A stretch of 11,026 bases of DNA. Source: Gammaproteobacteria bacterium. GTDB taxonomy: Bacteria > Pseudomonadota > Gammaproteobacteria > Pseudomonadales > Pseudohongiellaceae. Positions 4,697 through 11,026 of the stretch are shown here, in pieces; the first letter of the stretch is position 1; the number at the start of each line of letters is the position of its first letter. A program made the position numbers and the translations under genes. The notes beneath the pieces are model-generated. The model searched no databases and was not told the DNA's origin. It saw only the letters and a list, made by a program, of their open reading frames with translations. The DNA is taken from the NCBI GenBank assembly GCA_016762995.1, contig JAESUT010000035.1, positions 625-11,650 on the forward strand, given 5' to 3'.

Positions 4697-5470
4697 TTAA
4701 CTGCTCTCAATTTTTGAATTGATCATGCGATCCAAATACTCAATCGAGTCAGTGCCGACGATTGGTTCGAACTTGATGTCCGGATGCAGCCCTCGCATAT
4801 TAACATTTAGCATGCCGTGCGCCGAATTGAGCAATGTATCCAAAATAATCTTGTCTGTGTCGCAGCCTTTTGCCAATTCTACGAGGCGATCAAAGCCCAC
4901 TATAAAATTCTCGGTGTGGCGCCTACGAATTTCGGTACCGTAGTAGAGGTCGACGTAATCCACGTCAGCTACCCCAGCCATCGTTAGAAATAGGCGAGAG
5001 AAAATCTCACTATCCCCACCAGCAAACTGCGTCCAGACTTCCGCCATTTCTTCAGATGAATAGTTACTATTCCCAATCGGGCTCTGCGAGGAGAGAAACA
5101 ATAGACCTATTATCGAACCCAACTGCCTTCGCGTACTTTCTGCGATCTTAAAGAAAGTCTCCTGCCGCGCATTCATCTCCGTCGCAGCAATAGCCTGGGT
5201 CTGCTTCTCCGAATGTAGATTGTTGCGACGCAGCTCCTCATTATTCTCAGCTAACACCGACTGCTGAATAAACAAGCCAACTACCAACCAGAGAAATGCC
5301 AAAAACGCGAACGCTCCCTCTAAGAAAGTGCCCATCTCTTCTATGGGCAGGTCAAGAAAAGAGCCCCAGCCGACATTTCGCGCTATATAGACAGCAAGAA
5401 AGCAGAACCATAAGAAGGTGAGGACAATCGCAAACCAGATGCGCCAGTCTTTAGGGATATAGGATTTCAT
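4697..5470 (-). CDS. Two-TM, coiled-coil membrane protein; resembles putative phage abortive infection proteins
   Basis: I do not recognise this 257-residue protein at family level with certainty. Two transmembrane helices are clear (about 12-32 and 48-70). The second lies in LPIEEMGTFLEGAFAFLAFL followed by WLVVGLFIQQ. After it comes a polar, Glu/Asn/Gln-rich stretch (about 71-105) likely to be a coiled coil, and then a cytoplasmic domain of about 150 residues containing RQETFFKIAESTRRQ and HTENFIVGFDRLVEL. The order 'Gly-Thr-Phe ... Gly-Ala-Phe-Ala-Phe-Leu-Ala' helix, then 'QQ' and a coiled coil, is the one seen in proteins annotated as putative phage abortive infection proteins (PF16872-like), which have no proven biochemical activity. 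No nuclease, NTPase or other catalytic motif is visible. The ATG at 5470 lacks a clear Shine-Dalgarno. It sits between an exported hydrolase gene and the MAPEG gene, on the same strand, without other defence genes. A general stress-sensing or membrane role is equally possible. Confidence 0.72.
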   Translation of the reverse strand: MKSYIPKDWRIWFAIVLTFLWFCFLAVYIARNVGWGSFLDLPIEEMGTFLEGAFAFLAFLWLVVGLFIQQSVLAENNEELRRNNLHSEKQTQAIAATEMNARQETFFKIAESTRRQLGSIIGLLFLSSQSPIGNSNYSSEEMAEVWTQFAGGDSEIFSRLFLTMAGVADVDYVDLYYGTEIRRRHTENFIVGFDRLVELAKGCDTDKIILDTLLNSAHGMLNVNMRGLHPDIKFEPIVGTDSIEYLDRMINSKIESS

Positions 5471-6628: not shown

Positions 6629-6871
6629 ATGACCAAGAAGAAACAAGCGAAATTCGATTTTGAGATAGCTCTAGAAGAGCTGGAGGAGCTGGTGTCCTCC
6701 ATGGAAGACGGCGAGCTTAGTCTCGAGGAGTCCTTACAAGCCTTTGAGAAGGGCATTAAGCTGACTCGCGAGTGTCAAACCGCGCTGAAGAATGCCGAAC
6801 AGAAGGTACAGGTATTGTTGAATGAGAGCGGCGATACTACAGAATTAGATCTCGACGAAGTCGAAGAATAA
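6629..6871 (+). CDS. xseB: Exodeoxyribonuclease VII small subunit
   Basis: An 80-residue protein matching XseB throughout: FDFEIALEELEELVSSMEDGELSLEESL (9-36 region), ALEKG-like QAFEKGIKLTRECQTALKNAEQKVQVL (37-63 region) and an acidic tail. It is almost entirely helical and partners XseA to form exonuclease VII, which degrades single-stranded DNA to oligonucleotides. XseA is not in the window, which is usual for gammaproteobacteria, where xseB sits ahead of ispA. The ATG is preceded by AGGAAC. The stop is nine bases ahead of the ispA start, so the two are surely co-transcribed. Confidence 0.97.
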   Translation: MTKKKQAKFDFEIALEELEELVSSMEDGELSLEESLQAFEKGIKLTRECQTALKNAEQKVQVLLNESGDTTELDLDEVEE

Positions 6872-6880
6872 ACCAAACCG

Positions 6881-7795
6881 ATGAGCACAGCGAATACCCC
6901 TCAGCTAAATGAATTTCAGCAGCATTGCCAGCAACGCGTCGACCGGCGCCTTGATGCGGCACTCGATGCCGATATCGCCAGCGCTACGCTTCTAGAGGCG
7001 ATGCGCTATGCCTGTCTGGGCGGAGGCAAGCGCATTCGCCCCGTCCTAACATACGGCAGCGCACTCGCCGTGGGCGGCGACCTCCCCGCTGCAGACAATG
7101 CGGCCGCGGCCATCGAACTCATTCATAGCTATTCCCTGGTACATGACGACCTTCCCGCGATGGATGACGATGACCTGCGTCGCGGCAAACCTACGTTGCA
7201 CAAGGCATTCGACGAGGCTACTGCGATACTGGTAGGCGATGCGCTGCAGCCCCTAGCCTTTCAGATATTAAGTACCGACCCTATAACCGAAAATGACGCG
7301 CTAGCCGCCAACAACCGCCTTGCCATGGTCCAATTACTGAGTCAGGCAGCTGGCGCCACAGGAATGGTCGGTGGTCAGAGCCTGGACTTCGAGGCGGTAG
7401 GGGTAAAACTCAACATCCAACAGCTTGAGCAGATGCATAGCCTCAAGACCGGCGCCCTAATTCGCTGTGCCGTACTACTTGGCGGCATGAGCTGCGAAAC
7501 GGCAAGCGACTCACAAATGGACGCATTAGCAATCTATGCAGACAATATAGGACTGGCATTCCAAGTGCAGGACGATATCCTGGATGTAATCGGAGACACC
7601 TCGCAACTAGGTAAACCGCAGGGCTCAGACAGTGACAAAAACAAACCCACCTATGTCTCTCTCTTGGGCCTAGATGAAGCGAAGGCTCTAGCTAATTCAC
7701 TATCAGATAAGGCTATCGCCGCCCTGAAGGAATTTCCTGCCAGCGCAGACAGATTGCGAGAACTAGCCGCCTTTGTGGTGAGTAGATTGCACTGA
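6881..7795 (+). CDS. ispA: (2E,6E)-farnesyl diphosphate synthase
   Basis: A 304-residue all-helical prenyltransferase of the short-chain trans type. Seen in order: GGGKRIRPVL (47-56, diphosphate-binding), the first Asp-rich motif in HDDLPAMDDDDLRRG (88-102), GGQSLDF (164-170), KTGALI (189-194), and the second Asp-rich motif FQVQDDILDVIGD (227-239), followed by the KPT segment (255-257). The residues ahead of the first motif, HSYSLVHDD, are those of bacterial farnesyl diphosphate synthases. It condenses IPP with DMAPP and then GPP in the cytoplasm, feeding ubiquinone, undecaprenyl phosphate and other isoprenoids. Length is normal (E. coli about 299). It has little Shine-Dalgarno of its own and starts nine bases after xseB, so it probably depends on translation of that gene. 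dxs follows after 117 bases. Confidence 0.97.
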   Translation: MSTANTPQLNEFQQHCQQRVDRRLDAALDADIASATLLEAMRYACLGGGKRIRPVLTYGSALAVGGDLPAADNAAAAIELIHSYSLVHDDLPAMDDDDLRRGKPTLHKAFDEATAILVGDALQPLAFQILSTDPITENDALAANNRLAMVQLLSQAAGATGMVGGQSLDFEAVGVKLNIQQLEQMHSLKTGALIRCAVLLGGMSCETASDSQMDALAIYADNIGLAFQVQDDILDVIGDTSQLGKPQGSDSDKNKPTYVSLLGLDEAKALANSLSDKAIAALKEFPASADRLRELAAFVVSRLH

Positions 7796-7801
7796 TCAGG
7801 G

Positions 7802-7807
7802 TATAAT
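7802..7807 (+). promoter_or_regulatory. Possible -10 box of an internal dxs promoter
   Basis: A perfect TATAAT lies seven bases after the ispA stop codon. No good -35 is found at normal spacing (TGAGTA at 7779-7784 is poor), so the case rests on the -10 and on the following leader-like structure ahead of dxs. A second promoter here would let dxs be controlled apart from ispA. Confidence 0.3.
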
Positions 7808-7839
7808 TGACGATTCGGTGCTTGCGCCGGTTTTCACCC

Positions 7840-7910
7840 CCCTCTAGGCTGTTAGCTGCAGACGTTGCAGGCCTTAAGCTATCTAGAGGGTATCTGGAGT
7901 TGAACTACAG
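7840..7910 (+). promoter_or_regulatory. Structured leader of dxs (long hairpin plus Shine-Dalgarno hairpin)
   Basis: CCCTCTAG (7840-7847) pairs perfectly with CTAGAGGG (7883-7890). Inside, GCT (7848-7850) can pair with AGC (7877-7879), and CTGCA (7856-7860) pairs with TGCAG (7866-7870) around GACGT. Directly after, CTGGAGTTGAACTACAG (7894-7910) folds as CTG/CAG plus AGT/ACT with one G-A mismatch, and it contains GGAG (7896-7899), the only Shine-Dalgarno candidate for dxs. The fold therefore could hide the ribosome binding site. No T-run follows the first hairpin, and no known riboswitch consensus (including TPP) is recognisable. Confidence 0.5.
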
Positions 7911-7912
7911 CT

Positions 7913-9853
7913 ATGCTTAATGAAATACCGCGGTCCCGGCCCGACACGCCATTACTGGATAAGGTAGACAATCCTGACGACCTAAAACTGCTGGAGCTAG
8001 ATCAACTGGCTCAGTTGGCGGAAGAGCTGCGCGCGTTTCTTCTCTATTCTGTGGGTCAAACTGGCGGGCATTTCGGTGCGGGACTCGGCGTGGTCGAGTT
8101 AACCATCGCGCTTCACTATGTATTCGATACGCCAAATGACAAGCTAGTCTGGGATGTAGGTCACCAGGCCTATCCACACAAGATCCTTACCGGCCGGCGA
8201 GACCAAATGCTGACCATGCGCCAGGCGGGTGGCCTTGCCGCGTTCCCAAATCGCGGCGAGAGTGAATATGACACCTTCGGTGTCGGCCACTCCAGTACGT
8301 CCATTAGCGCGGCGTTAGGCATGATGGTGGCAGCAAAAACGCAGGGCAAAGAGCGGCATAATATTGCCGTTATTGGTGACGGTGCGATGACTGCCGGCAT
8401 GGCCTTCGAGGCACTGAATCACGCCGGCCATCTCGATGACAATATTCTCGTTATCCTTAACGATAACAATATGTCTATCTCCAATAATGTCGGCGGACTC
8501 TCCAGCTATTTCGCCCGCATGTGGGCAAGCAAGCCCTATAACTTCATTCGCACCGGCAGCAAGCGCGTACTATCTAAGATTCCTCCCGCATTGAAGGCAG
8601 CGCACCGCGCAGAAGAATACATGAAAGGCATGGTGTCACCCGGCACCTTGTTCGAAGAGATAGGCTTCAACTACATCGGTCTAATAGACGGACACGACAC
8701 CAATGGGCTTGTCGATATACTCAGGAACATAAAGACTCTACGTGGCCCACAACTGCTGCACATCGTTACGCAAAAGGGCAAGGGCTACCTAGAGTCCGAG
8801 AACGACCCCTTCGGCATGCACGCTCTGAGCAAAATAGGCCCAGGAGCAGCCCCAAATACTGAACCTGCCGAGACTCCTGAAGAAGGCATTGAGCCAGATC
8901 CCAAGAGTAGTTCTTCACTGAGCTATTCGGAAGTCTTCGGCAATTGGTTGTGCGAAGTTGCGCAGCATGATGAGCTCACGGTAGGCATAACACCTGCCAT
9001 GGGGGAAGGTTCGGGCATGAGTAAATTCGCCGCAGAGTTCCCCGATCGCTTTCACGATGTGGCCATCGCCGAACAACACGCCGTAACTTTTGCAGCAGGC
9101 ATGGCCACCGACGGGCTAAAGCCTATCGTTGCTATATATTCGACCTTCTTGCAGCGTGGCTACGATCAGTTAATCCATGATGTTGCCTTACAGAATCTGA
9201 ATGTGATGTTCGCCATCGACCGGGCTGGTCTCGTCGGTGAAGACGGCCCCACCCATGCTGGCAGCTTTGACTTGAGTTATCTGCGCTGTATTCCAAACAT
9301 GGTAGTGATGACACCAAGCAATGAAGATGAAACCCATAAACTATTATCAACCGGCTATCACTTCGATGGGCCATCGGCTGTTCGCTACCCACGCGGCAAA
9401 GGACCTGGTGCGGTTATAGAGACCGGACTAGACCCAGTTGAGATTGGTAAAGCCAAGCTCCGCAGGCACGGTAGCAAAGTCGCAATCCTTGCCTTCGGCA
9501 GCATGGTGAACCCTGCCTTGGAAGCGGCTGAAAAACTGGATTTAACTGTAGTAGATATGCGCTTCGTTAAGCCGCTAGATATCGGCACCATCGGCGACAT
9601 GGCGGAAAAACATCAATTGCTGGTAACTATCGAAGAGAATTCTTTGATGGGCGGCGCAGGGTCTGCCGTGAACGAATTCCTGCTCGCCTCCAACTACCAG
9701 ATACCGGTCCTGAACCTAGGATTGCCTGATGTATTCTTGGAACATGGCAAGGTACCGCAGATGTTAGCGGATGCAGGCCTCGATGCTGCAAGCATCAGCG
9801 CCGCTATCAAGAAGAAATTAAAAGACTGCAAAATTCAATCGGAAGCTGTCTAA
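7913..9853 (+). CDS. dxs: 1-deoxy-D-xylulose-5-phosphate synthase
   Basis: A 646-residue thiamine-diphosphate enzyme that joins pyruvate and glyceraldehyde 3-phosphate to DXP, the first step of the MEP isoprenoid pathway and also a source of thiamine and pyridoxal. Key parts: GGHFGAGLG (51-59) with catalytic His53, [16 protein letters not shown] (80-95), the ThDP/Mg motif from GDGAMTAG (155-162) to NDNNMSIS (183-190), [15 protein letters not shown] (248-262), the second-domain [14 protein letters not shown] (385-398) with Glu387, and [15 protein letters not shown] (436-450). The C-terminal transketolase domain is complete (about 510-640). The linker at 310-340 is Pro/Glu/Ser-rich and somewhat long, accounting for the size above E. 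coli's 620. The ATG follows GGAG at a long 13-base spacing in a folded leader. It sits with ispA, an arrangement that joins the first and a late step of isoprenoid synthesis. Confidence 0.98.
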
Positions 9854-9930: not shown

Positions 9931-10539
9931 GTGCCAACTAGCGAAGAGAGAGCGTTACGCCATAAGAAGGCGATGCAGCGTAAGAAGGAACACATAGACG
10001 GCCGCATTGCCGCAGCTACCATCGATAAGGGTCTGCTGGTGGTTCTTACCGGTAACGGCAAGGGCAAGAGCACCTCTGCCTTCGGCATGCTCGCACGCAG
10101 TGTTGGACACGGACTCCGCTGTGGCGTTATTCAATTTATAAAGGGTCAGTGGGAATGCGGCGAGCAGATGCTGTTTGCCGACAACCCGTTGGTTGAATTT
10201 CATGTAATGAACACGGGTTTTACATGGGAGACTCAGGACCGCGACAAGGACATTGCCGCCGCCGAGAACACTTGGGCACACGGCGCTGCAATGATGAAGA
10301 ATCCAGAGGTTGATGTGGTGATTCTGGATGAGCTCACCTACATGCTTACCTATGGCTATCTCGATAAGGAGATGGTGCTGTCCGCGCTGGAGAACAGACC
10401 CGAGGACCAACACGTTATAATAACCGGACGTAGTGCCGCCAAGGAGCTCATAGAGTTGGCGGACACCGTTACCGAGCTAAGCGAAAAGAAACACGCGTTC
10501 TACGACGGCGTCAAAGTTCAGAAGGGCATCGACTACTGA
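9931..10539 (+). CDS. cobO: Corrinoid adenosyltransferase, CobO/BtuR (CobA) type
   Basis: A 202-residue P-loop protein that transfers adenosyl from ATP to Co(I) corrinoids, making adenosylcobalamin or its precursors in the cytoplasm. Seen: a basic N-terminal helix (about 8-22), Walker A GNGKGKST (41-48), VIQFIKGQWECGEQ (66-79), GFTWETQDRD (96-105; the corrin-facing loop), ILDELTY (131-137; Walker B-like) and HVIITGRSA (161-169). Length is close to E. coli BtuR (about 196). The GTG start at 9931 is supported by GGAG (9921-9924) six bases upstream, inside the perfect palindrome CTGGAGTCCAG (9919-9929). It lies 77 bases after dxs with no terminator between, so it is probably read from the same transcript. 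No other cobalamin gene is in the window, so salvage as well as synthesis is possible. Confidence 0.96.
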   Translation: MPTSEERALRHKKAMQRKKEHIDGRIAAATIDKGLLVVLTGNGKGKSTSAFGMLARSVGHGLRCGVIQFIKGQWECGEQMLFADNPLVEFHVMNTGFTWETQDRDKDIAAAENTWAHGAAMMKNPEVDVVILDELTYMLTYGYLDKEMVLSALENRPEDQHVIITGRSAAKELIELADTVTELSEKKHAFYDGVKVQKGIDY

Positions 10540-10561
10540 TGATTGCCAATCCGATAATATC

Positions 10562-10588
10562 AACGCAATATCGAGGTAATAGTGCGTT
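10562..10588 (+). other. Small inverted repeat ahead of the repeat-protein gene
   Basis: AACGCA (10562-10567) pairs with TGCGTT (10583-10588) around a 15-base loop, ending directly before the AGGA of the repeat gene. An overlapping alternative is CGATA (10552-10556) with TATCG (10569-10573). No T-run follows, so it does not terminate the cobO transcript in the usual way. It could affect translation of the downstream gene, but six pairs with a large loop is weak support. Confidence 0.3.
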
Positions 10589-10601
10589 AGGAATATTTGG
10601 C

Positions 10602-11026
10602 ATGTCGTTTTTATTTGAGAAGACACTCAATAATCTACCTACTCGATTTAGGAAAAGTTTTTCGCGGCTGTTGGTGTTGGTAACTTTTTTCATTAGTCAA
10701 TCGTCTCAAAAAACTCTTTCAACTAGCTTGGGGAAGGTACTTTCGCTGGGGTTGGTTTTTGTGACTCTTATGGGTTGGGAGACGACCCAGAGAATTCTTT
10801 CAACGAGTTTACGAAAAATACTTTCGCTGCTGTTGTTTTTTGTGACCCTTATCACTCCGGAGACGGCCCAGAGAATTCTTTCAACGAGTTTACGGAAAAT
10901 ACTTTCGCTGCTGTTGTTTTTTGTGACTCTTATCACTCAGGGGACGGCCCAGAGAATTCTTTCAACGAGTTTACGAAAAATACTTTCGCTGCTGTTGTTT
11001 TTTGTGACCCTTATCACTCCGGAGAC
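10602..11026 (+). CDS. Unrecognised tandem-repeat protein with signal-peptide-like units, 3' end cut by window
   Basis: An ATG at 10602, with AGGA (10589-10592) nine bases upstream, opens a frame without a stop to the window end: 141 codons and counting. The product starts MSFLFEKTL and then consists of 27-residue units at residues 10-36, 37-63, 64-90, 91-117 and from 118 on. Each unit has the same plan: a Ser/Thr stretch with basic residues (STSLRK), a hydrophobic core of about 12 residues (ILSLLLFFVTLI), and a polar tail (TPETAQ). The first unit, with TRFRKSFSR, then LLVLVTFFI, then SQSSQ, reads as a plausible Sec signal peptide. Differences between units include silent ones (Thr, Ser, Leu, Lys codons), consistent with coding. 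No homologue is recognised. The opposite strand is also open through part of the array, but has a TGA inside it (10706-10708). Alternatives are a multi-pass hydrophobic protein, or a non-coding minisatellite that happens to stay open because 81 is divisible by three. Confidence 0.6.
   Translation, partial: MSFLFEKTLNNLPTRFRKSFSRLLVLVTFFISQSSQKTLSTSLGKVLSLGLVFVTLMGWETTQRILSTSLRKILSLLLFFVTLITPETAQRILSTSLRKILSLLLFFVTLITQGTAQRILSTSLRKILSLLLFFVTLITPE
10629..11026. repeat. 81-bp tandem repeat array
   Basis: Units start at 10629, 10710, 10791, 10872 and 10953; the last is cut by the window end after 74 bases. The unit at 10629 is strongly diverged. The one at 10710 differs from its neighbour at 19 of 81 bases. 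The unit at 10872 differs from the one before at four positions. The unit at 10953 is identical to that at 10791 across all 74 visible bases. Every copy carries a variant of CTTTCAACGAGTTTACG and CTTTCGCTGCTGTTG. There are no unique spacers, so it is not a CRISPR array. The period is exactly 27 codons and keeps the plus-strand frame open throughout. Confidence 0.95.

Follow-up and report, generated by a model that had tools for sequence, protein, structure and literature searches.

Signal peptides are usually regarded as single. In the precursor of microcin PDI, McpM, two successive double-glycine leaders are both cleaved (PMC5311971, PMC10233263), and polygalacturonases of a rumen bacterium have been called 'tandem signal peptide-containing' (PMC7807696), a wording that possibly refers to natural tandem signal peptides and could also mean tandem genes. 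The long signal sequences of autotransporters are described as following a common domain plan (PMC2805444), the CTG repeat in the signal peptide of human CNDP1 carries a repeat-number polymorphism that affects secretion (PMC8128792), and in B. subtilis extracellular enzyme activity rose by 63% with two engineered serial signal peptides (PMC12652682) and 1.6 times in a second engineered serial design (PMC8062742). The array analyzed here, which probably lies in front of a BtuF-like vitamin B12-binding protein, shares with McpM a naturally duplicated export leader before one product; however, the McpM leaders, as described, belong to an ABC exporter, are only two and are both cleaved, whereas here the leaders appear to be of the Sec type, vary in number and carry the ancestral cleavage site only in the last copy. 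The passage on the polygalacturonases (PMC7807696) describes no repeat array or copy-number variation of the kind found here, and the autotransporter signals, which are likewise over-long Sec signals, come without repeated copies of one signal peptide in their description (PMC2805444). According to the cited accounts, a single-codon repeat lengthens one core in CNDP1, whereas here whole signal peptides are repeated, and the B. subtilis tandems are synthetic with two copies, whereas the present array is natural with at least six. Among the papers listed by searches of the open-licence PMC literature for repeated or tandem signal peptides and for intragenic repeats, we recognized no description of a natural array of Sec signal peptides, PMC7807696 being ambiguous in this respect; PMC12697944 and PMC8026896 were set aside as precedents because their tandem or repeated signal-peptide wording is used in another sense.

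The window, by which we mean the whole stretch of DNA analyzed (11,026 nucleotides; G000:C229:625-11650), ends where its contig ends, and the array reaches this contig end. Tandem Repeats Finder reports an 81-bp tandem repeat at 10738-11026 (3.6 copies, 91% matches, 0% indels, score 473), corresponding to a unit of 27 residues and confirming the period proposed in the first-pass annotation; the hydrophobic core of about 12 residues that it had described for each unit is also present, with basic residues ahead of the cores. The 3' units A, B and A' are the most similar to one another (94-100%), and the 5' units U1 and U0 are more diverged (Table 1). The array sequence by itself is stop-free in two of the three plus-strand frames, which justifies an earlier worry that it might be a non-coding minisatellite; the openness of the array thus proves little, and the evidence for coding comes from its flanks and from the relatives. 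The corrinoid adenosyltransferase gene cobO lies directly upstream of the array frame. Further upstream of cobO-btuF, on the same strand, xseB, farnesyl diphosphate synthase and dxs (window 6629-9853) form an ordinary isoprenoid cluster, and a frame of 257 amino acids on the minus strand at 4697-5470 has no Pfam match.

Table 1. Features of the cobO-btuF junction and the repeat array in the window; unit starts are given in protein phase, and identities between units are at the nucleotide level.
Feature	Positions	Strand	Remarks
cobO/btuR, corrinoid adenosyltransferase	9931..10539	+	Pfam CobA_CobO_BtuR 212.5 bits; NCBIfam cobA 222.3 bits, cutoff 167.75
TGATG, cobO stop overlapping btuF start ATG 10539	10537..10541	+	start/stop overlap in relatives
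5' part of btuF: leader and signal-peptide array	10539..11026	+	open frame; continuation presumably on C74 (L003:1-981)
Leader residues 1-30 ahead of the units	10539..10628	+	contains the second candidate start, ATG 10602
AGGA before alternative start ATG 10602	10589..10592	+	9 nt ahead of ATG 10602
Unit U0	10629..10709	+	27 aa; most diverged, 59% identity to A
Unit U1	10710..10790	+	27 aa; 77% identity to A
Unit A	10791..10871	+	27 aa
Unit B	10872..10952	+	27 aa; 95% identity to A (4 nt changed: 2 synonymous and 2 non-synonymous codons)
Unit A' (second A)	10953..11026	+	100% identity to A over 72 nt; ends at contig end

Elsewhere in the window's genome, the array is matched only by the first 119 bases of contig C74, which begins within a B unit, passes through a terminal unit and continues in frame into an open frame of 326 residues. 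On this one contig, the terminal unit is a normal signal peptide fused to a BtuF-like vitamin B12-binding protein. Although the two contigs are not physically joined, C74 is probably the missing half of the window's gene; an early stop codon just beyond the window, which the first-pass annotation had named as a mark of a non-coding repeat, is not seen there, the frame on C74 continuing into the BtuF-like protein. This protein matches Pfam Peripla_BP_2 with 92 bits (cutoff 27.5), its best NCBIfam model by far is BtuF (188.4 bits, under the equivalog cutoff of 234), and vitamin B12-binding proteins take the first nine places among its PDB matches (best 5ysc, E 9e-57). Judged by these homologies, we assign the array-bearing protein as BtuF-like: as in BtuF (class of PDB 1n2z and 5ysc), the mature domain matches along its length and cobO adjoins, but the protein of this clade scores under the NCBIfam BtuF cutoff. 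The same genome holds one match to a FecCD permease, putatively of the BtuC type (280 bits, C210). The earlier statement that no described family has such a plan is hence to be divided: the protein itself is of a described kind, and the oddity is its leader.

Read from the 5' end, the units on C229 are U0, U1, A, B and A'. Since A' needs at least one last unit after it, the minimum is six units, and if C229 and C74 belong to one chromosome the number becomes seven, because the B unit of C229 precedes A and that of C74 precedes the last unit. We modeled the assembly using unitigs of A/B arrays that start with ABA and end with B, with up to seven such units and k from 41 to 199; no modeled array at any k in this range reproduced both contig ends together. 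Within k 91-144, the right contig end alone fits k 95-97 or 119-121, and the left end fits none. Since no modeled array gives both ends, we keep the unit number of this genome at 'at least six'. An assembly error may lie behind this particular array, but the two- and three-unit forms described below lie inside contigs of other assemblies.

Our genus sample comprised 84 genomes including that of the window, 71 of them with a BtuF match, and loci were taken from 29 besides the window's own. The junction between cobO and btuF was readable in 28 of the 29 (loci L005-L033), the locus of G032 (L025) being cut by a contig end, and in the relatives cobO, leader and btuF lie on single contigs. By eye and by a unit scan, 7 of the 28 leaders bear repeats, with two units in G058, G052, G077, G079, G080 and G072 and three in G004. 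In contrast to these repeat forms, which range from two to at least six copies when the window's genome is included, ordinary BtuF relatives have a single signal peptide: G073, whose BtuF is 88% identical, has one that begins at the cobO stop, and the remaining 20 leaders are single by eye. The unit scan found no unit in six outgroup loci. A search of 137 family genomes with the G004 leader returned ten matches, all in the same genus, among which G057 was discounted as a stretch with seven stops and G073 matches through its single signal peptide. With the first 140 residues of the G004 protein as query, 45 of 1176 candidates were homologous proteins; the unit scan found two or three units in 14 of these 45, and P0018 and P0022 have two units by eye, the first being truncated. 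The spacing is 27 residues in all multi-unit rows scanned, except one of 29. The locus is thus a coding variable-number tandem repeat, with head-to-tail, in-frame units whose copy number differs among relatives.

A quick tree built from the mature domain, with 44 of 58 rows labeled, requires at least 11 copy-number changes, a figure to be read with the roughness of this tree, in which many forks are open, some labels come from predicted starts and 14 rows with uncertain starts are unlabeled. The end of the array differs even between near-identical strains: P0017 deviates from the BtuF of the window's genome in 3 of 302 residues, and its junction runs from A to the last unit versus from B to the last unit in C74. 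Used as a protein query, the partial frame of the window, which is repetitive and cut off, gave no hit at E <= 0.001 among 7988 scored candidates, and the first 60 residues of the C74 protein gave 5 of 295 candidates, none with a longer array. A further, older unit suspected by eye in residues 1-30 did not rise above the 99.9% threshold of the scan. The related records (uncultured Gammaproteobacteria, Pseudomonadales, Pseudohongiella, OM182) indicate that the source bacterium is probably marine. These loci form a natural series, within a single genus, in which the same orthologous protein carries one, two, three or at least six signal peptides of the Sec type, and they make the handling of serial signals by Sec, and the evolution of export via repeat number, directly testable.

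Two candidate start codons, ATG 10539 and ATG 10602, share one frame that is open to the window end. The first-pass annotation had chosen ATG 10602 with its AGGA; both elements are present, but by homology ATG 10539 is the likelier start. Of the 28 readable junctions, 21 have a start codon that overlaps the cobO stop (20 ATG and 1 GTG) and seven have neither, and in the window's genome and all eight genomes with the closest BtuF it is an ATG. This TGATG overlap suggests translational coupling from cobO to btuF. The AGGA before ATG 10602 also occurs in G058 and G077; G052 and G072 have no ribosome site of at least four bases before the equivalent position, and G004, G079 and G080 carry a residue other than M there. 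Downstream of ATG 10602, the array part of the window contains no ATG, GTG or TTG with a ribosome site of at least four bases. A promoter scan gave one promoter-like site against 1.1 expected and is thus uninformative.

The first 57 codons, comprising the leader and U0, contain an in-frame stop in none of eight genomes, and the other two plus-strand frames of the same codons contain three to seven stops, except for one stop-free frame each in G079 and G080. In neutral simulations with about 226 estimated substitutions on a neighbour-joining tree, using a simple self-made substitution model and slices that are equal in length by construction, 0 of 5000 runs left all eight genomes stop-free. The leader is 309 nt long in all six two-unit genomes and 390 nt, one unit more, in G004, and the units begin at residue 31 both in the window's genome and in all seven repeat-bearing relatives with DNA; these two observations are evidence against indels. 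The leader evolves as a translated frame. Together with the fusion of unit and BtuF on C74, this supports the original proposal that an N-terminal export signal was duplicated in tandem and in frame.

Selection on the units was gauged by pN/pS pooled over the 15 non-independent pairs of the six two-unit genomes. In the reading frame, the pooled value is 0.86 in residues 1-33 (shifted-frame controls 0.93 and 0.78), 0.75 in U0 (controls 1.10 and 0.89) and 0.47 in the last unit (controls 0.93 and 1.46), and the mature protein has 0.13. The last unit is constrained as expected of a signal peptide, U0 is at most slightly constrained and residues 1-33 are not detectably so. For the latter, the value in the reading frame is not below both shifted frames and gives no signal of amino-acid selection, so that translation of this stretch is argued from the stop and length evidence only.

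A simple -3/-1 signal-peptidase rule was applied to 21 distinct leaders (23 sequences given, two duplicates dropped), several of which come from near-identical strains. The ancestral cleavage position, adjoining mature BtuF, is permitted in the last unit of 21/21 leaders and in the penultimate unit of 0/21. The penultimate unit loses this site through the position of the repeat boundary, and its counterpart of the cleavage position ends in K, R or E in all 21. Elsewhere in the penultimate unit, 15 of the 21 leaders have loosely permitted sites, close to the expectation from nine positions at a base rate of 0.128 per position; these sites do not point to internal cleavage, which may nonetheless happen, and we dropped the statement that cleavage of internal units is impossible. 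All features of a Sec signal peptide are found in the last unit, and the internal units have an n-region and a core but are without the ancestral site.

The hydrophobic cores give a less uniform picture. In the window's genome, the cores of A and B (KD12 3.02) are more hydrophobic than that of the last unit (2.58) and are not decayed, so that a role of these young units as signals or membrane segments is conceivable. Over the 21 leaders, which are non-independent rows, core hydrophobicity differs little between the last (2.01) and the penultimate unit (1.81; p 0.046), and the penultimate core exceeds the last in five of them, clearly so in P0001, P0007 and G004, three of the four leaders that have three units. 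Among the six two-unit genomes, five have a charge in the best 12-residue window of U0, in many cases at the window's edge, and none has one in that of the last unit; in G004, the best 12-residue window of the last unit holds one charge. The AlphaFold2 model of the G004 protein has a mean pLDDT of 65.5, with most of the leader below 60, and places separate helices, mostly of low confidence, at 39-58, 63-86 and 89-108.

We consider it likely, from comparison of these sequences, that the array is an in-frame multiplied btuF signal peptide of which the last copy exports the protein and is cleaved, the upstream copies being tolerated passengers. The segment coding for the btuF signal peptide would have been multiplied in frame as an 81-bp minisatellite, and translation would most likely start at the ATG overlapping the cobO stop and run through every unit into BtuF. 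The last unit, with its normal core and ancestral cleavage position, would be the working export signal cut by signal peptidase I, and the upstream units would depart with it as one over-long leader. Units could be gained and lost via slippage or unequal recombination without a frameshift, since the repeat is 27 codons long, and older upstream copies would decay or drift afterwards. This explanation does not account for the cores of A and B being stronger than that of their own last unit or for penultimate cores exceeding last ones in three-unit forms; youth alone may be the reason for such strong cores, or the units may be active. The feature is real and mostly explained: the protein is of a known kind, its leader is very unusual and the extra copies are probably near neutral, which suggests minisatellite-like behaviour of an export tag. 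The surprise is moderate and lies in the natural copy-number series of signal peptides, which offers a clean experimental system for serial Sec signals.

An alternative that we regard as unlikely is that the upstream units raise or lower the export of BtuF, so that gain and loss of repeats would adjust B12 uptake. Slippage would then set the number of Sec signals on the B12-binding protein as a rheostat of its periplasmic amount or, through an even or odd number, of the side of the membrane on which it lies; we keep the even/odd switch within this reading only, because the two-unit forms show no consistent loss of the U0 core. Such tuning would fit the strong cores retained by A and B and the array end that differs between near-identical strains, and it has parallels in the enzyme activity raised by serial signal peptides in B. 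subtilis (PMC12652682, PMC8062742) and in the effect of the CNDP1 leucine-repeat polymorphism on secretion (PMC8128792), as these sources present them. However, amino-acid constraint upstream is little in two-unit genomes, and the frequent charges in the best U0 window, often at its edge, also speak against tuning.

It is improbable that the units form hairpins that cross the inner membrane or dip into it, tethering BtuF or flipping it by their even or odd number, even if the 12-residue cores of A and B are hydrophobic and uncharged and the AlphaFold2 model of the G004 form shows separate helices. By the positive-inside rule, basic residues before the cores disfavour an alternating membrane orientation, and this is where they lie in the array of the window. 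In addition, the cores are short, and the common two-unit forms would turn BtuF inward if both units were inserted.

We give very little credence to the view that the array is an untranslated, non-coding minisatellite and that the start of BtuF lies in the last unit. The upstream pN/pS values of 0.75-0.86, close to the shifted-frame controls, the public G004-type record P0019 that starts inside the core and the several open frames of the array would agree with it; against it stand the stop-free leaders, unmatched in the neutral simulations, their conserved lengths, the lack of a start with a ribosome site of at least four bases after ATG 10602 in the array part of the window, and the conservation of the start codon at the cobO stop in the window's genome and its eight closest relatives. 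Serial cleavage with release of small peptides, one of the outcomes put forward in the first-pass annotation, is the least probable: the ancestral site is lost in all 21 penultimate units, and the loosely permitted sites there are near the base-rate expectation. In its favour are the existence of these sites, GTA|Q in the B unit of the window's genome and the precedent of microcin PDI, where both successive leaders are reported to be cut (PMC5311971).

Three further records bear on the 5' end of btuF. The public protein P0019 (L040, G004-type, NVUL01000102.1) has 289 amino acids, its start lying within the hydrophobic core, and conceals a 386-aa frame that contains three units; the record probably misses the true start, and gene callers may miss such repeated leaders. 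P0005 shows another duplication, its usual leader start lying downstream of a second copy of an SFL...STSNN-like segment, so that the gene's 5' end may have a tendency to duplicate that is not limited to the 81-bp unit. In Pseudohongiella sp. isolate bin.121 (L017/L052), a more distant BtuF leader opens with a short leucine/arginine repeat, possibly another expansion of a signal-peptide repeat.
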